A DNA stretch of 64,000 nucleotides from Halobacteriales archaeon QH_7_66_36 (lineage in GTDB: Archaea > Halobacteriota > Halobacteria > Halobacteriales > Haloarculaceae). Below, one piece after another: positions 33,480 through 62,926 of the stretch. A model generated the notes under the pieces. The model was given only the letters and a program-made list of their open reading frames with translations. It did no database searches and was not told the origin of the DNA. Location of the stretch: positions 117,671 to 181,670 of the forward strand of contig PXQV01000012.1 in NCBI GenBank assembly GCA_003021175.1, given 5' to 3'. The position numbers and the translations under genes are program-made. The stretch's first letter is position 1; every line of letters begins with the position of its first letter.

Positions 33480-34391
33480 ATGGAATGGTCGCTCCGCCGT
33501 CCGGCGCTTCGGGTCTACGAGCGGCTGCTGGAGCAGGAAGTCGACGGCGCGCCGTCACACGTCGCGGTCATTCAGGACGGCAACCGTCGGTACGCCGAGT
33601 CACGGGGGAAGGAGCGAACGGCAGGCCACCGCGCCGGCGCGGAAACGACGGAAGCGATGCTTCGGTGGTGTCGCAACTTGGGCGTCGACGAGTTGACGCT
33701 GTACGCCTTCTCGACGGAGAACTTCGACCGCCCGCCCGAGGAGCGGGAGGCGCTGTTCGACCTCATCGAGTCGAAGCTCCGCGACTTCGCCGACCGCGAG
33801 GAGGTCCACGAGCATCGCGTCCGGATCCGCGCCATCGGCGAGACGGGCCGACTCCCCGAGCGCGTCCGCGAGGCCGTCGCGTACGCCGACCGGCGCACCC
33901 GCGGCTACGACAACCTCTGTCTCAACGTCGCGCTCGCGTACGGCGGACGAGCGGAACTCCTCAACGTGGCCCGCGAGGTCGCGCGTGACGTGCGCGGCGG
34001 CGACCTCGCGCCCGGAGATATCGACGCCGACGAACTGGACCGTCGGCTCACGACCCAGCCGAGACGCGACGTCGATCTCATCATCCGGACCGGCGGCGAC
34101 GAGCGCACCTCGAACTTCCTGCCGTGGCACGCGAACGGGAACGAGGCCGCCGTCTTCTTCTGTACGCCCTACTGGCCGGAGTTCCGCCGCGTCGACTTTC
34201 TGCGGGCGATCCGCACCTACGAGTCGCGCCGGGAGTCGTGGCGACGCACTCGCGCACAGCGCGCACTCGCGCTGGTGTCGTCGCTACGCGACAGAGAACT
34301 GCCGGAAGCGCGACGCGTCCTCGGGCGGCTCCGCGGCTCGCTTCCCGAAGACGAGTTGGCGGAAGCGGACGTGGAGTCGACTGCGGACTGA
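33480..34391 (+). CDS. uppS: cis-prenyltransferase (undecaprenyl/dolichyl diphosphate synthase family), catalytic
   Basis: 303 residues from the ATG at 33480 (MEWSLRRPALRVYERL). Catalytic cis-PT motifs are intact: HVAVIQDGNRRYAESRG with the catalytic Asp, ELTLYAFSTENFDRP, DLIIRTGGDERTSNFLPW. It makes long Z-polyprenyl diphosphates for the dolichol-type carriers of N-glycosylation. A non-catalytic-looking paralogue lies 1.1 kb away on the other strand with one gene between. Confidence 0.92.
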   Translation: MEWSLRRPALRVYERLLEQEVDGAPSHVAVIQDGNRRYAESRGKERTAGHRAGAETTEAMLRWCRNLGVDELTLYAFSTENFDRPPEEREALFDLIESKLRDFADREEVHEHRVRIRAIGETGRLPERVREAVAYADRRTRGYDNLCLNVALAYGGRAELLNVAREVARDVRGGDLAPGDIDADELDRRLTTQPRRDVDLIIRTGGDERTSNFLPWHANGNEAAVFFCTPYWPEFRRVDFLRAIRTYESRRESWRRTRAQRALALVSSLRDRELPEARRVLGRLRGSLPEDELAEADVESTAD

Positions 34392-34447
34392 GCCTTAGCG
34401 GGATTATACGACAAAGTATTATCAGGAGGTCGTGTGAGTACACGCTA

Positions 34448-35476
34448 ATGAGTATTGAGGAGTTCGTCTCAACCTCTCAACTCTCCGAGTTCGTCTCGCA
34501 GTCACAGGAGATTGTTGAGCAGTACCCTCAGATGAACGAGGATAACACGAAGTCGAAGCTTCTTCGCGATTTTCTTGAACTACTTGGCTGGGACATTGCC
34601 TTCGATGCTGAGCTTGAGTACAAGGTGCCAATTGGCAACAGCTATAATCGAGTCGATTACTCGCTCTCGTTAGATGGTGGCTCTCCGGTGCTGTTCGTGG
34701 AAGCAAAGGGGTACGACACGAAGCTAACTGAGTCACATCGGGATCAGATTCATTCGTATCTCCGGCAGACCGACGTGAACTGGGGACTCCTGACTAACGG
34801 AGAAGAGTACGAAGTATGTCGTCGTGAGAACGTCGCTGACGGGGTCAAGATACGAACAGTAGCTAATATAGCACTGAACGAACTCCCTGACCGAGCACAC
34901 TACGTCGGACTTGTCTCGAAGGATGCACTTCGTTCTGGCGACGCTGAGGAACTCGCCGAGCAGATATTCGAACTTCGAAAGGCCGAGCGGACACTTCGTA
35001 ATGAAAAGGAGGAGCTTGCCGACGAAATCGTAAACGTTCTCGTTGAATCGGTCGGTGATGCTATTTCTCAGCAGGCGACGACGGAAGCCAAGGAGATGAT
35101 CGATCGACTCGTCAACGAACTTGAGGAGCGCACAGAGGAGACATCAGCGGATTCATTCTGGAGCGAGGTCAAGCAAGCAACGGGAATTAAGCGAACAGAT
35201 GATTCAGTCCGGCTGGTCGATGACAACCAAGCTGTAACGGATTATGTGAACTTCGTCCAGTTTCTTTTTGAGAATGATCACATCTCTCGCTCTGACTTGC
35301 CGATAGAGTCTGGCCGCATTCGGTATGATCTGAACACGAAACCGGAGCACAAGGACGGCAGTGAAATGACAAATTCGAAGGAAGTCGTAGAGGGAGCGTA
35401 TTTAGAAACGCATCAAAACACTGCGGACAAAAAGCGAAAAATCGTCGAACTCGGGAGACAGTTTGGGACCGACTAA
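34448..35476 (+). CDS. HsdR N-terminal-like PD-(D/E)XK nuclease domain protein, probably acquired
   Basis: 342 residues from the ATG at 34448 (MSIEEFVSTSQLSEFV). Residues ~40-160 resemble the type I restriction HsdR N-terminal domain: SKLLRDFLELLGWDI, then D and ExK of a PD-(D/E)XK site in NRVDYSLS and PVLFVEAKGYD, and WGLLTNGEEYEV. Residues 175-240 are coiled-coil-like; the C-terminal 100 residues are unrecognised. There is no helicase, methylase or specificity gene beside it. Its base composition is clearly lower in G+C than its neighbours, and it breaks up the two cis-PT genes. Confidence 0.75.
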   Translation: MSIEEFVSTSQLSEFVSQSQEIVEQYPQMNEDNTKSKLLRDFLELLGWDIAFDAELEYKVPIGNSYNRVDYSLSLDGGSPVLFVEAKGYDTKLTESHRDQIHSYLRQTDVNWGLLTNGEEYEVCRRENVADGVKIRTVANIALNELPDRAHYVGLVSKDALRSGDAEELAEQIFELRKAERTLRNEKEELADEIVNVLVESVGDAISQQATTEAKEMIDRLVNELEERTEETSADSFWSEVKQATGIKRTDDSVRLVDDNQAVTDYVNFVQFLFENDHISRSDLPIESGRIRYDLNTKPEHKDGSEMTNSKEVVEGAYLETHQNTADKKRKIVELGRQFGTD

Positions 35477-35499
35477 AATTGCCGGCTCCTATTCGAATC

Positions 35500-35516
35500 G
35501 AATATCGACGATATTC
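35500..35516. terminator. palindrome after the nuclease-like gene
   Basis: GAATATCG-A-CGATATTC, an AT-rich perfect dyad 24 bp after the stop. It could be a terminator or part of an insertion boundary. A second perfect dyad, AGTACA-C-TGTACT, follows at 35540-35552 at the 3' end of the next gene. Confidence 0.4.
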
Positions 35517-35551
35517 ATCTCGGTCGTCCGAGCGCGGACAGTACACTGTAC

Positions 35552-36160
35552 TCACTGCCCGAACCGCCGCTGACGCTCCTGATACTCCCGGAGCGCGCGC
35601 AGATACTCCCGTTTCCGGAAGTCGCGCCAGTTCACGTCCGTGAAGTACAGCTCCGAGTAGACGGACTGCCAGATCATGAAATCCGAGAGCCGCTCGGCAC
35701 CGGTCTTGATGAGCAGGTCCGGCGGCTCCGGGAAGAGGAGCCGCTCCTCGATAGCCGCCGCGTCCACGTCCGCCGGGTCGAGGTCGCCGCGGTCGACGGC
35801 CTCCGCGACGCCCTCCACGGCGGTGGCGAACTCCTCGCGCCCGCCGAGTCCGATGGCGATCTGAACGGACGCGTCGGCGGGTTCGTCGGCCTCGGGACCG
35901 CGCACAGCCACGTCACGGTGGGTGTCGAGATCCTCCAGCGCGCGCCGGAGCGTCGGCACGGCGTCGGCGTCGAGCACGCTCACCGAGACGGTGACACGCT
36001 CTGCGCCGTAGTCGAACGTCCAGCCGACGAACGCGGCGAGCGTGTCGTACGCGCCCGGCTCCAGCAGGTCACGCTCCGTGATGACGAGCGCCACTCGGTC
36101 GGGGAGCGGCGCGTCGGCGAGACGGAGGCGCGCCGCGAGATACCGGTCGTAGAGTCCCAC
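35552..36160 (-). CDS. cis-prenyltransferase paralogue lacking the catalytic motif, possible partner subunit
   Basis: 202 residues. The C-terminal half is clearly cis-PT: DLLIKTGAERLSDFMIWQSVYSELYFTDVNWRDFRKREY. The N-terminal half lacks the DGNRR catalytic motif, reading RVALVITERDLLEPGAYDTL where it should be. In eukaryotes and at least one archaeon, cis-PTs work as pairs of a catalytic and a non-catalytic NgBR-like subunit; here the partner would be the gene at 33480. Alternatively it is a divergent enzyme. Confidence 0.8.
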   Translation of the reverse strand: MGLYDRYLAARLRLADAPLPDRVALVITERDLLEPGAYDTLAAFVGWTFDYGAERVTVSVSVLDADAVPTLRRALEDLDTHRDVAVRGPEADEPADASVQIAIGLGGREEFATAVEGVAEAVDRGDLDPADVDAAAIEERLLFPEPPDLLIKTGAERLSDFMIWQSVYSELYFTDVNWRDFRKREYLRALREYQERQRRFGQ

Positions 36161-42257: not shown

Positions 42258-42620
42258 GGTGTTTGACTAAGCGATTGCTGGCGAGGGACCCGCTCGGGAG
42301 GACTGGAAGGGGCTGTGCGTGCGCGGCGGCTGCGCCGCCGCGACCATTCGAGGCCGGCGAAGCCGGCCTCGCACTCGACGACGACGGGCGTTCGGAAGAC
42401 GCGGAGCGTCTTCCGCAGCCCAGCAGCAATCGAAGATTTCTGCGGACGACGCAAGCAGTGAGGTGACGGAGCCACCTCGGGCCGCTCGCGCGGTGCAACC
42501 GCGCGAGGACACCGCAGGCCGACGGCCGAGGACCGCAGCGAGCTCATCGAGTCGAGCGTGCAGGGGCTTCCAAACTCCTCGCTGCTCCGGTCACCGCAAC
42601 TCCAAGACGTCAGTAAACAG
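42258..42620 (+). repeat. R2 element, copy G, with inserted hairpin modules
   Basis: Begins GGTGTTTGACTAAGCGATT and ends GTAAACAG, with GGACTGGAAGGGGC near 42301-42314 and GGGGCTTCC near 42562-42570. It is about 160 bp longer than the similar copy A2. The extra sequence carries perfect triloop hairpins: 42322-42342 (loop TGC), 42349-42371 (GAA), 42393-42415 (GGA), 42485-42507 (GCA). It lies between convergent cofG and cofH. Confidence 0.72.
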
Positions 42621-44076: not shown

Positions 44077-44288
44077 CAGTGTTCAGCCAAGAGTGACTCC
44101 GGGGATTAGGATGGCAACACAGTGCAGAAAGCCCCCGGGCGCTACGGTCGCGCGGCTCGCTGCGCGCCTCGCCCTCTCTTCGGTCGGGCTGCGGTGCTTG
44201 CGTCGCCGGGCTTCCCGTACCGACCGGCCCCTTTCAGTCCCACCCAGCACGGGTTTTGGCCGAACGACGACCCATTATTTGAACACTG
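44077..44288 (-). repeat. R2 element, copy C
   Basis: Best-bounded long copy. Its ends are perfect 9-bp inverted repeats, CAGTGTTCA (44077-44085) and TGAACACTG (44280-44288). Minus strand carries GGGACTGAAAGGGGC and GGGGGCTTTCTGCAC. The arms next to these boxes have yet another sequence and pair imperfectly. It lies 12 bp from copy D in head-to-head orientation. Confidence 0.8.
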
Positions 44289-44300
44289 TCCTCTCCCCGG

Positions 44301-44450
44301 TAGTGTTCGGAGAAGCGATGGCTGACCGAGCACGGGCGGGTGGGACTGGAAGGGGTCGGTGCGCGGCGGCTGCGCCGCCGCGACCAGTCGAGGCCGGTCC
44401 AAACTCGTCACACTAGCTGTGGCGACTCATACAGACTTACTTGAACACTA
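44301..44450 (+). repeat. R2 element, copy D (short)
   Basis: 150 bp between perfect ends TAGTGTTC (44301-44308) and GAACACTA (44443-44450). It keeps GGGACTGGAAGGGG and a 9+3+9 hairpin (44362-44382, loop TGC) but has lost the GGGGGCTTTC half. The hairpin is identical to one in copy G. No target-site duplication is evident. Confidence 0.75.
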
Positions 44451-44499
44451 TCAGTGAGGCCGCGCGAAGTTTCAAGCGCGTCGAACCCTGACGAAGGGT

Positions 44500-46370: not shown

Positions 46371-47606
46371 TCAAGACGCATACGTTCCGAGCGTCGCTTG
46401 CTGGACTTCAGCATCGGCTTGGCCGTCTTGTGGCGCGGTCAAACGCGCCCCATCCTCAGCCGAGTCATCGTCGTTCGGGTGTTCTCTGGAACGACTCTCT
46501 CCGCTGAGGTAGCGGTCTGCGATGTTCACCGCTCCGTTCACGTCCGCCTGATACTCGCCTACCCAACAAGCGTCGTTCGTACACTTGAACGTCGCCTGTT
46601 GCGGACGATACCCTACCTCACCGCAAGCGTGGCATTCTTTCGACGTGTTTCGGGGATTCATCGTCTCGACAGGGATACCCTTCTCGACTGCCTTGTAGCG
46701 TATCTGCGCGTGGAGTTTGGCGAACCCCCATCCGTGGAGGCGGCGGTTTATATACTCGCCGTAGTCCATCGACTCCCGTATGTACGTCAGGTCTTCCAGA
46801 ACGAGAACGGGATTCTCGACAGATTCGGCGTATTCCACGACTTCGCGAGTGACGTGGTGGAACACGTCGTCTATCTGGTTCCACAGGTCGTCGAACGACT
46901 CTGCGATACGCTCGCTACCGCGCTTCTGAAGCCGTCTCGTGGCGGTGAAGTAGGTCTTGCGAAGCCGACGAACAGTCTTACCATCGTCGGCCCACAGTTC
47001 GGGAGCGGTCGGAGACCCGTGGTCGTCGCGGTGACACACCGTGACGAGCGACGCTTCTCCAATATCGATACCGATGGGCATCCGTTCCTCGGCGGACGCC
47101 TCGGAACCGTTCTCTACGTTGCGGGTGGCGGTAACGTGGAGGAACCACGTTCCGTCCCGCTCAAACAGCCGACTCTCGCCCATGTCCGCGTCGCCAGCGT
47201 TCAACGCCTCGAGCCAGCCCCGCTGTTCGGGGTTCGGCTGTGCTGGCATCCAGAGGTGGTAGTCCTCGTGGTGCGGAACCTTGACGTACCACTCGATAGC
47301 GTTCTCGGGTTTGTGGTCGAGCCGTAGCCCCTCGTTCGTGAACCGAACAGGGTGGTTGTCGTGAAGTTCACCCGCGTTGTACGTCGTCGTCAACTGTGGG
47401 ACGTACTTCTTGAGCGCGTTCTTCGCGTACCCGCTCAGGTCGTAGCTGACCACCACGTCGTTCGCTTCGGTCTGCGTGGTACATCGGGCGTCGAAGGCAT
47501 CGTGAAGGGCGGTCTGGTACACCTCTCGCGTCTCACAGAGTTTCCTCCGCTTGTGCGCGTTCGGCTCCACCAGTTTCAGTTCCAGCGTCTTCGTGAGTTC
47601 GGTCAC
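46371..47606 (-). CDS. tnpB: TnpB RNA-guided endonuclease
   Basis: 411 residues, full-length and open. RuvC-like catalytic residues are present: D181 (GIDIGEAS), E271 (VLVLEDLTYIRES), D355 (YQADVNGAVNIADRY). A four-Cys zinc finger (C325, C328, C342, C347; CHACGEVGYRPQ then CTNDACWVG) lies between the last two. It should cut DNA with the guide from the element's right end. Overlaps the tnpA relic by 4 bp, so the original pair was translationally coupled. Confidence 0.92.
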   Translation of the reverse strand: MTELTKTLELKLVEPNAHKRRKLCETREVYQTALHDAFDARCTTQTEANDVVVSYDLSGYAKNALKKYVPQLTTTYNAGELHDNHPVRFTNEGLRLDHKPENAIEWYVKVPHHEDYHLWMPAQPNPEQRGWLEALNAGDADMGESRLFERDGTWFLHVTATRNVENGSEASAEERMPIGIDIGEASLVTVCHRDDHGSPTAPELWADDGKTVRRLRKTYFTATRRLQKRGSERIAESFDDLWNQIDDVFHHVTREVVEYAESVENPVLVLEDLTYIRESMDYGEYINRRLHGWGFAKLHAQIRYKAVEKGIPVETMNPRNTSKECHACGEVGYRPQQATFKCTNDACWVGEYQADVNGAVNIADRYLSGESRSREHPNDDDSAEDGARLTAPQDGQADAEVQQATLGTYAS

Positions 47607-48043
47607 GAATCGTCTTCCTCATGGCGCTGGATGTAGTTCGTGACCGTCTCGCTGGATACGTGGCCCGCCGTTCCTGCGTAGTAGCCTCTCGCCCATGGAA
47701 TCTTCTCGCCGTCGTGGTCGGCGTATCGGTGGTTGTATTTCCGCGAGGAAATCCCCTTGAACCAATTGGCGAGAAGTGACGGGGCGTGCTTCGGTGGGCT
47801 ACTGATGGACAGGTGAACGTGGTCGGGCTGTACGGTCAAGTCGAGTATTTCGAGGCCCTTGTCGTCGGCTATTTCGTGGAGGATGGTTCGCACACGGTCC
47901 GCGACCTCGTTGACGAGTACCGATTGGCGGTACTGAGCGGAGCCTTGCTCCGCGATATCCGCAGAACCGACGGTTCTGCGAGACTTCGGCAACTACACTG
48001 TGTGGTAGTTGAGGTTGTAGGTCGCGTGCCGTGTGGTCTTCAT
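47603..48043 (-). pseudogene. tnpA: tnpA of IS200 type: nonsense codon plus 51-bp in-frame insertion
   Basis: From the ATG at 48043 it reads MKTTRHATYNLNYHT-V-stop-LPK, where relatives read YHIVWLPKYRQS: TGG has become TAG at 47993-47995. Directly after LPK, 51 bp (47933-47983, 17 codons) are inserted before YRQSVLV. Beyond that the Y1 transposase is intact, with the HUH motif DHVHLS and the Tyr in VTNYIQRH. The enzyme should be dead; the insertion alone would keep the frame. Confidence 0.85.
47933..47983 (-). repeat. 51-bp insert made of two triloop hairpins
   Basis: The insert is two perfect hairpins separated by GATATC: 47937-47953 (7+3+7, loop CTT on plus strand) and 47960-47980 (9+3+9, loop GAC). 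Its length is a multiple of three. The flanking tnpA sequence joins cleanly without it, so it is a true insertion into a coding sequence. Confidence 0.75.
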
Positions 48044-49135: not shown

Positions 49136-49571
49136 CGGCATGGCCGTACTACCCCGACGGTCGAATGTGATAGTAAGACGCTCACCGCGCTTCCGGCGTT
49201 GTTCAAACGTGGTTCGAAACGGCGAAGCCGTTTCGTCATTGCGGGAAATCGGAGATTTCCCGCTTGCAGTCAGAACGCGTCGCGTTCTGACGACATCACG
49301 AGAGAGCGAAGCTCTCTCGAACGACGACAAGAAGCGTGCAACGGCGGCTGTGGCCGAGTGTCGAACCGGTAGGAGTGGGACACTCCGAACCACCCAGCGA
49401 GGGACAACGCCCGTGGAGTCTGGAACCGCTGTGGGAACGCTCCCTGCACGTTCCGACGCCGAAGCAGGAACCCCCGATCTCAAAGATCGAGCCGCGAAGT
49501 CGTTCGAGACGGCTTCGCCGTCTCGTGATGACGAGAGAGCTTCGCTCTCTCGGACCACGCCGAGGGAGTAG
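49136..49571 (+). pseudogene. decayed TnpB C-terminal tail interrupted by hairpin modules
   Basis: Reading the plus strand near 49350-49500 gives GTTPVESGTAVGTLPARSDA and EAGTPDLKDRAAKS, a tail I recall from haloarchaeal TnpB proteins, but no RuvC or zinc motifs remain. Interspersed are perfect triloop hairpins at 49215-49235 (GAA), 49241-49263 (GGA), 49270-49290 (GTC), 49299-49319 (GAA), 49475-49489 (CAA), 49505-49525 (TTC) and 49532-49552 (TTC). The two at 49299 and 49532 have identical arms in opposite orientation. Confidence 0.5.
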
Positions 49572-57086: not shown

Positions 57087-57135
57087 ACCCGCCGTTGGCG
57101 CTCCGACGACTAAAACCTCGGCGTGGGCGGTGAGG

Positions 57136-57552
57136 TAGTGTTCAGATACGCGGGTCGTCGCTCGGCTTCGCAACCGCGTCGGGTGGGACTGAAAGGGGCC
57201 GTTATCGGCGGCGGAGCCGCCGATTGCTCGGGAGAGCGTCGCTCTCCCGGTGGGCGCTACGGGAAGCCCGGCGACGCAAGCAGCGAGGGACCGGTGGTCC
57301 CTCGCTGTCGTCGGCGCGGAGCGCCGACTGCCCGAGGTGGGTGGGCGCTACGGGAAGCCCGGCGACGCAAGCAGCGAGGGACCGGAGGTCCCTCGCTGTC
57401 GTCGGCGCGGAGCGCCGACTGCCCGAGGTGGCTCCGCCACCTCGCCGCTTGCGTCGCCCGTCTTCGTCGAATGCGAGGCCGGCTCCGCCGGCCTCGAATG
57501 GTCGCGGCGGCACAGCCGCCGCGCACGCGCAGCCCCTTCCAGTCCCGCCCGC
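57136..57552 (+). repeat. R2 element, copy H, with triloop hairpin array and 91-bp duplication
   Basis: Starts TAGTGTTCAGATACGCGGG, with GGGACTGAAAGGGGCC near 57185-57200, and ends with an inverted GCCCCTTCCAGTCCCGCCC (57532-57550), so two elements meet tail to tail. Perfect hairpins: 57204-57224 (GGA), 57229-57249 (GTC), 57282-57306 (11+3+11, GGT), 57310-57328 (GGA), 57373-57397 (GGA), 57401-57419 (GGA), 57424-57444 (TCC), 57474-57496 (TCC), 57503-57523 (ACA). It fills the 606-bp gap upstream of the GTPase gene. Confidence 0.72.
57251..57432. repeat. 91-bp tandem duplication inside copy H
   Basis: Two units, from 57251 and from 57342, identical over about 90 bp except near their edges and in one hairpin loop (GGT at about 57293 against GGA at about 57384). 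A recent duplication within the hairpin array. Confidence 0.85.
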
Positions 57553-57692
57553 AGCAGTTGACCAACTTAGCATCGATGGTGGGACTTTCGAGATGTCTCC
57601 GGCCGTTCCACGAATGATTCAACGAAACCCAACCAGTACCGAGCTACGAGCGGACGGACGCGCTTATACGCGTCGGTGGTCAATCAGGTTCA

Positions 57693-58676
57693 ATGAGTGT
57701 TTTCGAATCGCTTCCGACGACCCCGCGGTCGGAGGAACTGATCGACAAGGCGTTCTCGCGGGGGGCGCGGGCCGGCCACGCCAAGGAGGGCATCGAGGCG
57801 CAGGAGTCGATGCTCCAGACGGCGGGCAACGTCCTCTCCGATAATCTCGGCAACGTCGTCACCTCGTGGCCGGACTTCGACGATCTGGATCCCTTTTACC
57901 GTGACCTCGCTGACGCCGTCGTTCGCCGCGAGGAGTTGGACGTGGACGCGCTCCGCCAGCACCTCAACGAGGTGATGTGGGCCTCACGCCAAGTCGAGGA
58001 GATCAAAAGCGAGTACCACGGCCGCCTCCGGAACGCCGACACCGACACCGCGCGCAAGCTCCGCAAGCAGGCCTTCGCCCGATACGCAGACGTGACCGAA
58101 TCCGTCGCAGAGGACTTGCTCGCCATCGGCGACGCCCGCGACGAACTGCGGACGCTCCCGGACATCCGCCCGGACGAGCCGGCCATCGTCGTCGCCGGCT
58201 ATCCGAACGTCGGCAAGTCGTCGTTCGTGAACCGCGTGACCCGCGCCTCGAACGAGGTGGCGACGTATCCGTTCACGACGAAGCAGATCCGCGTCGGCCA
58301 CTTCGAGCGCGACCGCATCCGGTATCAGCTCGTCGACACCCCCGGCGTCCTCGACCGACCGGCCGAGGACCGCAACGACATCGAAGCACAGGCCGTCTCC
58401 GCGCTGACGCATCTGGCGGACGCGGTGGTGTTCCTCCTCGACGCGAGCGGCAACTGCGGCTATCCGCTCGACTCGCAGGTGGCGCTCCGCGACGAGGTGG
58501 CGGCGATGTTCGCCGACGACACGCCGGTACTCACCGTCTGCAACAAGGCCGACGAGTCGCGAGCGGCGGAGGCCGACCGCTACATGAGCGTCGAAACCGG
58601 CGACGGCGTGGACGAGGTGCTCGACGCGGCCGTCGAGGCCGTCGGTTACGACATCGAACTGCCGTTCGAGGAGTGA
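57693..58676 (+). CDS. nog1: NOG1-type GTPase
   Basis: 327 residues. N-terminal helical NOG1 region (residues 1-160, EELIDKAFSRGARAG, RKLRKQAFARYADV) and an OBG-type G domain: G1 GYPNVGKSS, G3 VDTPGVLDRP, G4 NKAD. Eukaryotic Nog1 acts in large ribosomal subunit assembly, likely the role here. A TATA-like GCTTATACG lies about 27 bp before the ATG. Confidence 0.93.
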   Translation: MSVFESLPTTPRSEELIDKAFSRGARAGHAKEGIEAQESMLQTAGNVLSDNLGNVVTSWPDFDDLDPFYRDLADAVVRREELDVDALRQHLNEVMWASRQVEEIKSEYHGRLRNADTDTARKLRKQAFARYADVTESVAEDLLAIGDARDELRTLPDIRPDEPAIVVAGYPNVGKSSFVNRVTRASNEVATYPFTTKQIRVGHFERDRIRYQLVDTPGVLDRPAEDRNDIEAQAVSALTHLADAVVFLLDASGNCGYPLDSQVALRDEVAAMFADDTPVLTVCNKADESRAAEADRYMSVETGDGVDEVLDAAVEAVGYDIELPFEE

Positions 58677-61803: not shown

Positions 61804-61860
61804 ACCCACTTTTTGCACGGGGGCCGGAGGCCCCCGCCAAAAACTTGGGGAAAATATGCG
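61801..61860 (+). repeat. R1 stop-codon-flanking element, archaemetzincin copy
   Basis: Begins with the stop codon: TAAACCCACTTTTTGCACGG, then an 8+3+8 hairpin (61818-61836, loop GGA), then CAAAAACTTGGGGAAAATATG. The flanks match the pdxS copy closely while the hairpin arms are different. Confidence 0.8.
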
Positions 61861-62926
61861 TGACCCCCTCCAGTCGCGCGGGTCGCTTTGCTCACCGCGC
61901 GGTAGTCGTCGCCCGTCTCGAGAAACGCTCTGCGTTTCTCGCGGGCTGCACGAGAGCTTCGCTCTCGTGAACGCTACGGAACCTCGCTTCGCTCGGTTCC
62001 GCGAACCGCGTGGCTGCGGAGCCGCCACGGGATATGTTGCTGGCTGAGCCGGCAACCCGCTCGCTTGCTTCGTTCGCTCACGGAGAGTCGTCGAAATGCT
62101 TCGTAGGAAACGAGTTCTCGAATCGGGCGTCGCCTGCTGGCGAAGGGTGGTGGCTCGGGTGAACGCCTCGTCACACGGGGCTCGGAGGGGGTAACTCTCC
62201 TCATCGCCACCGGCCGATCCTCCGACGAGCGAGCCACTAAACGTTGCTACTCTGGTCGAGGAGAGGGACGACCGGCGTGCGGCCGTCGCGCCGGCGTCCG
62301 AGTACGGACGCACGATGAGCGAGCACCATGGCACAGCGGTGGTGGTGGTTCGGCCCTACCCGTGTCGAACCACCGTGAGCCGCCCCGACACGAAACCGCC
62401 GGTCGCACGCGGTGGGGGTGGTATGCGGCGCGCGACCGGAGCGGGCCACACCGGTTCTGCCGGCGTCGGGCTGGGGGGTGACGACCGACGCCGACGAATC
62501 GGCACCGTCGTTCGGCCCGCGGCCGCGGTCGGTTTCACTTCGGGACATACGACGGTATGCGCCGGAGCCGTCTGTGTCGTTCCCCGAACATGTTCGTCCC
62601 CACATGCAGGACGGACTGGTTACGAGAGCGTGGGCTACGGGGAGAACGTGTAGGGTGACCGGGCGAGGCGGGGGGTAGGGTAGGTGGGGGGTGAGTCGGC
62701 CGGTTTCGGCACAGGCCCGGTTCACGTCGCGTCCACCGACCGACTGGGCTGGGACGCCAACAAGGTGTACAAGCCACATCCGATTAAGAACGTCCCCTAA
62801 GCTGTTTGGGAACGAGGGTCATATTCGTCGCTGGCATCGAGCACACGGCGGATCGACGGCGAAGTAACTGGATCGGATCGGAGCATTCGCCTCCGAACCC
62901 CCGACACTTTGGGGACGACGGGAATC
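61861..62926. other. 1.1-kb stretch without a recognised gene; hairpins at its left
   Basis: Two perfect hairpins (61919-61941, loop TCT; 61949-61969, loop TTC) and two imperfect ones follow R1. A different stem with 9-bp arms and a 13-nt loop is at 62344-62374. The right half has runs of G and no family-like protein in either strand. A structured RNA or a decayed gene is possible. Confidence 0.45.

Follow-up and report, generated by a model that had tools for sequence, protein, structure and literature searches.

The perfect triloop hairpins in the window (the whole stretch of DNA that was analyzed, 64 kb in length) are accessory modules of an order-wide non-coding mobile repeat family in Halobacteria. 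The repeat is composed of the head GGGTGGGACTGAAAGGGG, a hairpin of ~90 nt, and the tail GGGGCTTTC. It is probable, at roughly 0.55, that the core of this repeat, to which the triloop hairpins belong as accessory modules, is a mobile cassette, a hairpin that the cell handles in the form of single-stranded DNA. The points for this reading are the dispersed order-wide distribution, the kept pairing, the strand asymmetry, the mobility, the IS6 ends, and the modules placed in internal loops. The folded head strand, as single-stranded DNA, would be the substrate of an enzyme in excision, insertion or exchange. The high stability of GNA as a small loop in single-stranded DNA may be the reason why this cap is retained. 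The accessory hairpins would be copied and repaired via extruded hairpins, so that their arms stay perfect while their loops are rewritten or flipped. The original prediction was right in its GCGNAGC part, but missed the membership of these hairpins in a larger dispersed mobile element.

Build and distribution of the repeat

The reported locus at 57134-57589, 5' of the NOG1 GTPase gene at 57693, is a composite of an IS6-type end and head, a duplicated core start, an inverted element of the second subfamily, and an empty frame:

57134-57148, + strand: left terminal inverted repeat (TIR) of the IS6 type, GGTAGTGTTCAGATA, found by pattern; the same ends are on IS6-family transposons
57185-57198, + strand: conserved head GGGACTGAAAGGGG, pattern match
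57204-57249, + strand: accessory two-hairpin module at site 1, ATCGGCGGC-GGA-GCCGCCGAT and CGGGAGAGCG-T-CGCTCTCCCG, from the comparison of 22 module copies
57249-57430, + strand: 91-nt tandem duplication (57249-57339 and 57340-57430) with the core start and hairpins
57281-57307, no strand assigned: triloop hairpin with 12-bp arms and loop GGT; second copy at 57372-57398 with loop GGA
57310-57328, no strand assigned: triloop hairpin with 8-bp arms and loop GGA; second copy at 57401-57419
57424-57444, no strand assigned: triloop hairpin CGAGGTGGC-TCC-GCCACCTCG, from the hairpin scan
57474-57523, - strand: two-hairpin module of the second subfamily, part of the inverted element headed at 57546
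57533-57546, - strand: head GGGACTGGAAGGGG of the second element, facing the first, pattern match
57577-57589, + strand: empty frame TGGTGGGACTTTC that faces the head at 57546 head-to-head; its joint is the same as that of the empty Haloarcula site L231

The 91-nt duplicates differ solely in one triloop, GGT (57293-57295) versus GGA (57384-57386). Other copies in the window are the following:

840-949, - strand: canonical core hairpin, 104.4 bits
1053-1167, + strand: canonical core hairpin of the second subfamily, 95.2 bits
15180-15292, - strand: canonical core hairpin, 110.7 bits
20020-20172, + strand: element with TIRs at both ends and a core truncated at the right, 68.6 bits
42299-42571, + strand: expanded element with head 42299-42312, tail 42563-42571, and triloop hairpins at 42322-42342, 42349-42371, 42393-42415 and 42485-42507
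44127-44290, - strand: element with a canonical core hairpin at 44127-44241 (98.9 bits, E 8e-21) and a TIR at 44276-44290
44299-44452, + strand: short element from TIR to TIR, with head 44342-44355 and a single triloop hairpin at 44362-44382
49215-49552, no strand assigned: triloop hairpins with no recognizable head; the first hairpin pair looks, by eye, like a module within L188, an element of the congener
61818-61969, no strand assigned: triloop hairpins beside the degenerate head GCGACTGGAGGGGG (61864-61877, - strand)

Two other parts of the window were noted. An IS200/IS605-type element with TnpB (PF07282) and Y1 TnpA (PF01797) is at 46371-47992 on the minus strand, and the hairpins at 47.9 kb are at its end. 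G+C content at 34001-36000 is 0.58 versus ~0.68 around it, and this part is possibly acquired DNA.

The head GGGACTGAAAGGGG is found at 136 places in the 2.6-Mb source genome with at most one mismatch, and its reversed control at none. Copies per genome reach a hundred or more. Throughout haloarchaea, identical heads and tails flank hairpins whose stem sequences are unrelated. The exact 15-mer of the head was found in 24 of the 39 genomes of the relatives search, the source genome included, and a GTDB scan for the head gave haloarchaeal genomes only among the matches listed. Within the order, the covariance model, built from 48 diverse copies, has matches in 121 of 145 genomes and 43 of 50 genera. 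It has no match in the sampled genomes outside the order, and all 25 matches in the phylum sample are inside it. The repeat is an unannotated component of most haloarchaeal genomes, and the covariance model allows the annotation of regions that are now read as anonymous intergenic sequence.

Several candidate identities were rejected. The head pattern is absent from the virus and phage sequences of IMG/VR, and an origin from phages or viruses was rejected on this ground. A known RNA gene of Rfam was rejected, as Rfam 15 over the window gave nothing at gathering score; one test copy gave a single weak match of 16.2 bits, versus a cut-off of 53.7. ORF clustering within 2.5 kb around copies in other genera returned unrelated housekeeping genes with few shared sites (nucS-endA), and it rejects a conserved neighbour gene or transposase beside the core within this distance. 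The position and strand of copies relative to genes, which were called by a rough composition-based heuristic, show no clear bias, and a cis-regulatory placement was rejected on these rough gene calls. Among the papers searched, none contains the head sequence or describes the repeat family.

In several genera an element is found in the interval adjacent to nucS, and the stems of these elements are unrelated (L083, L124, L137 and L152; endA is also adjacent in three). A second interior class has the same head and tail and shows the conserved sequence CCCTAT(C) ... (G)ATATGTCGCT (L031, L035, L037, L055, L059, L076, L079, L101 and L166). In some genera the module AATCGGCTGGGGAGG replaces the usual spacer upstream of the head (L035, L043, L046, L080, L119 and L158). 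The head and tail jointly contain four G-tracts (GGGTGGGACTGAAAGGGG ... GGGG, for example at 57181-57198 of the window), and a quadruplex with the hairpin as its loop is possible. The tail-like sequence TGGCGGGGCTTTCTGGCTGTT is present as five tandem copies with a 45-bp period at G054:C1:1916075-1916275. The head presumably resembles the 3' end of some CRISPR repeats.

Fold, strand and tip of the core

Stem sequence is free between copies of the core, and the purine-rich internal loops are conserved, with their unpaired letters kept across the order. Compensatory changes, as expected of a structured RNA, are present in the consensus fold: pair-keeping changes on both sides are seen in 23 of the 26 consensus pairs. 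In total, 97.0% of the cells pair; shuffling the partners lowers this to 67.4%, and sliding them to 33-41%. The covariation score of 0.715, versus 0.191 in shuffles, was reached in none of 500 shuffles, a control that kinship among the sequences can inflate. The slid control and the effect size leave little doubt that the pairing is conserved, and the covariation signal is very strong for a repeat.

The main stem of 203 distinct copies, read on the head strand, contains 1710 Watson-Crick pairs, 45 G.T pairs and 10 A.C pairs. A strand-neutral process would equalize G.T and A.C, and thus it is the head strand that folds. The tip points to the same strand. Of 111 cores, 77 have a C-GNA-G tip on the head strand (6.6 in shuffles), and only one has TNC. 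The original prediction called for a check of strand bias in the loops; such a bias is seen at the core tip, where GNA is on one fixed strand, and is not seen in the accessory modules, where 19 loops are GNA and 19 are TNC relative to the element.

An RNA would be expected to show the covariation and the G.T tolerance just as well, which counts against the cassette reading. The core may be a structured non-coding RNA, or the RNA part of transcripts, which was spread by MITEs and other carriers and whose RNA fold is under selection. Such an RNA would explain the strong covariation, the conserved purine-rich internal loops, and why G.T pairs outnumber A.C pairs on one strand. RNA families, however, usually cap their stems with GNRA or UNCG tetraloops. 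Among the 111 core tips GNRA is at chance level (5 versus 4.6), TNCG is absent, and the tips are GNA triloops, which favours DNA over RNA without deciding between them. Copies also show no clear bias in position or strand relative to genes, have no Rfam family, and number up to a hundred or more in one genome, and these points count against an RNA. A structured RNA is considered doubtful, well behind a hairpin handled as single-stranded DNA.

Accessory modules, mobility and carrier

The extra sequence in copies longer than the canonical form consists mostly of pairs of ~21-bp triloop hairpins joined by a short linker. These modules are placed in internal loops of the core, at a few defined sites: one at CGGCG, three that follow GGGGCCG, AAGC and GCGAG, and one across the stem on its other side. 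One module was compared in 22 copies. Variation in its first hairpin is 0.8% for the arms and 36% for the loop, and the spacers vary by 2.7%; the same arms carry TTC, TCC, TGC, GAA and GGA, among other loops. These variable loops on constant arms, together with the 91-nt duplicates that differ only in a loop, indicate that loops change or flip much faster than arms. The expectation that arms differ between modules did not hold, as arms recur between copies and ATCGGCGGC is present in 21 of the 22. Within each module family the arms are shared, contrary to "a shared architecture, not a shared sequence". The even GNA strand of the accessory modules means that they have no strand bias; it speaks against strand-specific folding of this part and, to that extent, against the cassette reading.

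Mobility was observed by comparison with a congener at ~93% identity. Whole elements are present in one of the two genomes and absent from the other (L178/L210 near 5282, L181/L011 near 7927, and L192/L021 near 1198). At L185/L008, L187/L015 and L190/L197, a frame shared by the two genomes still has its interior in one but has lost it in the other. At four sites, elements at the same place have opposite orientations and different interiors. The endpoints of interior loss vary in the source genus. One Haloarcula site contains one hairpin in four genomes, another in two and a third in one, and it is empty in one. The empty copy (L231) has the exact joint GGGTGGGAC^TTTCTGGCTGTTC (GGGAC^TTTC), which would be the point handled if the core is a cassette. 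Empty frames recur in Haloarcula, with both GGGAC-TTTC and GGGGC-TTTC, and filled heads are found in 31 of 32 Haloarcula genomes. Interiors are thus lost, and interiors and orientations exchanged, at fixed sites.

Part of this record fits a process with no selection on the fold. The exchange of interiors could be explained by ordinary gene conversion in polyploid cells, and both kinds of empty joint fit slippage between short repeats. The copies would then be MITE-like repeats whose palindromes are kept perfect by templated repair and gene conversion and lost by slippage between short repeats. The mixed empty joints, the interior loss with varying endpoints, the exchange at fixed sites and the perfect arms with variable loops are all consistent with this. 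A strand-neutral process, however, predicts equality, and the core shows 45:10 for G.T to A.C and 77:1 for GNA to TNC. The conservation of unpaired internal-loop letters across the order is also against it. This explanation is unlikely, and less probable than an RNA.

In the source genus, the repeat is carried between the inverted ends GGYRGTGTTCAGATA. Three copies have exact 8-bp target duplications, TCGACTGG, TGTTCCGC and GTCCGGCC (L009, L019 and L020), and those of others are diverged. IS6-annotated places on haloarchaeal plasmids have the same ends, as do IS6 transposase loci spanning ~695 bp, indicating that the carrier is an IS6-type MITE. IS5-type transposases were rejected as carriers, as those of the source genus do not have the ends.

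The carrier has the ends and the 8-bp duplication of an IS6 MITE, but not a resident transposase. The IS6 transposase domain PF13610 has no match in the source genome (96.7% complete) or in the congener, which contains 127 exact heads; the transposase may have been lost or may be supplied transiently. The Y1 transposase domain PF01797 has no match in the congener either, and genomes without heads have several. Neither transposase tracks the copy number of the repeat, and the lack of IS6 matches in both genomes and of Y1 in the congener counts against a cassette.

The core is not confined to IS6-type ends. Among 143 copies at loci from relatives and GTDB species, these ends flank 18. Another 50 belong to head-to-head pairs with both partners filled, 3 are opposite an empty partner, and 72 are single; most copies outside the source genus are without IS6 ends. 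With the MITEs of IS6-family transposons (archaeal IS6, for example ISH29), the repeat shares ends of 18-22 nt (GGTAGTGTTCAGATAAGCGG), the 8-bp duplication, the lack of coding capacity, and presence or absence between relatives. It differs in that the core is widespread without these ends, the interior has a conserved fold and swappable modules, and no IS6 transposase was found in the source genome.

REP/BIMEs, which are mobilized by RAYT (Y1), are likewise hairpins scattered through intergenic regions; they too have a conserved 5' flank and often stand in head-to-head pairs. Here, in contrast, stem sequence varies between copies within a genome, the length is ~110 nt with conserved internal loops, and the number of copies does not vary with Y1 genes. 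Integron attC sites have conserved ends and fold, free stem sequence, a folded single strand, and cassette-like exchange. The repeat is possibly analogous, with its conserved ends, conserved fold, free stem and cassette-like exchange, although its joint is GGGRC^T instead of the integron core site and no gene cassette was seen. On the features tested, the core fits neither MITE nor REP/RAYT, and it is probably not an integron attC site.

The PATEs and SMRs of Haloquadratum walsbyi are described as haloarchaeal, transposase-free and present in dozens of copies, with SMR-A being ~110 bp and inserting into palindromes of IS605-type elements (PMC3119063). The repeat is also haloarchaeal, transposase-free, ~110 bp (as SMR-A) and present in many copies; compared by description only, it is possibly distinct from PATEs and SMRs, and it is regarded as a previously unlisted mobile non-coding repeat.

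A more specific form of the cassette reading is tentative. Order-wide archaeal cassettes consisting of a hairpin only, with free stems, conserved internal loops and a GNA cap, might be excised and inserted by a dedicated recombinase at the docking site GGGTGGGAC^TTTC and grow by paired mini-hairpin modules. The repeat makes it possible to study in laboratory archaea how folded DNA elements are excised and exchanged and how they grow.

Excess and loops of the triloop hairpins

A scan for perfect hairpins with 3-nt loops recovered all five clusters of the original prediction, at 42.3, 44.4, 49.2-49.6, 57.2-57.5 and 61.9 kb. Their coordinates are 42322-42507, 44362-44382, 49215-49552, 57204-57523 and 61818-61969. 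A frequency and a loop spectrum no different from shuffled sequence had been named as the outcome against the prediction, and both were found to differ. With arms of at least 8 bp, the window contains 23 perfect triloop hairpins, versus a mean of 3.6 and a maximum of 6 in ten dinucleotide shuffles. Nested hairpin counts were removed, and a true triloop was defined by loop ends that are not complementary.

The comparison was extended to 460 kb of the source genome, consisting of the window and 20 stretches of up to 20 kb each, picked for containing heads. There are 95 triloop hairpins with arms of at least 8 bp (22.8 in shuffles) and 70 with arms of at least 9 bp (7.4 in shuffles, maximum 11). 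Among these 70, 44 are within 450 nt downstream of GGGACTGAAAGGGG. Picking by heads inflates head density but not the loop-spectrum comparison, and the choice of sample explains neither the hairpin excess beside heads nor the loop spectrum. Chance or composition, by which the hairpins would simply reflect a genome of 68% G+C, is rejected, since dinucleotide shuffles yield about one tenth as many hairpins, the head repeats with zero control matches, and no support is left after the controls.

The loop is GNA or TNC, the latter being GNA read on the other strand, in 38 of 50 triloops near heads (76%) and in 29 of 228 in shuffles (13%). In other genera it is GNA or TNC in 26 of 35 triloops, and 25 of these 26 are closed by C-G. 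In single-stranded DNA, a GNA triloop with a closing C-G pair is hyperstable. The assignment to the d(GCGNAGC) class is borne out, as C-G-closed GNA/TNC loops dominate in the source genome and in the others, and the core tip is of the same kind. The d(GCGNAGC) mini-hairpins are synthetic oligonucleotides; the likeness lies in the C-GNA-G cap, which prevails both at the core tip and in the accessory modules, and here it is a natural feature kept in evolution. Whether cells make use of the very stable C-GNA-G hairpin of single-stranded DNA can be tested on this naturally occurring repeat.

Other loop lengths show little excess. With arms of at least 9 bp, loops of 2, 4, 6, 8 and 9 nt occur as often as in shuffles or nearly so, and loops of 7 nt at most slightly more often. 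Loops of 1 nt (25 versus 3.1 in shuffles, arms of at least 10 bp) and of 5 nt (19 versus 6.1, arms of at least 9 bp) are moderately raised.
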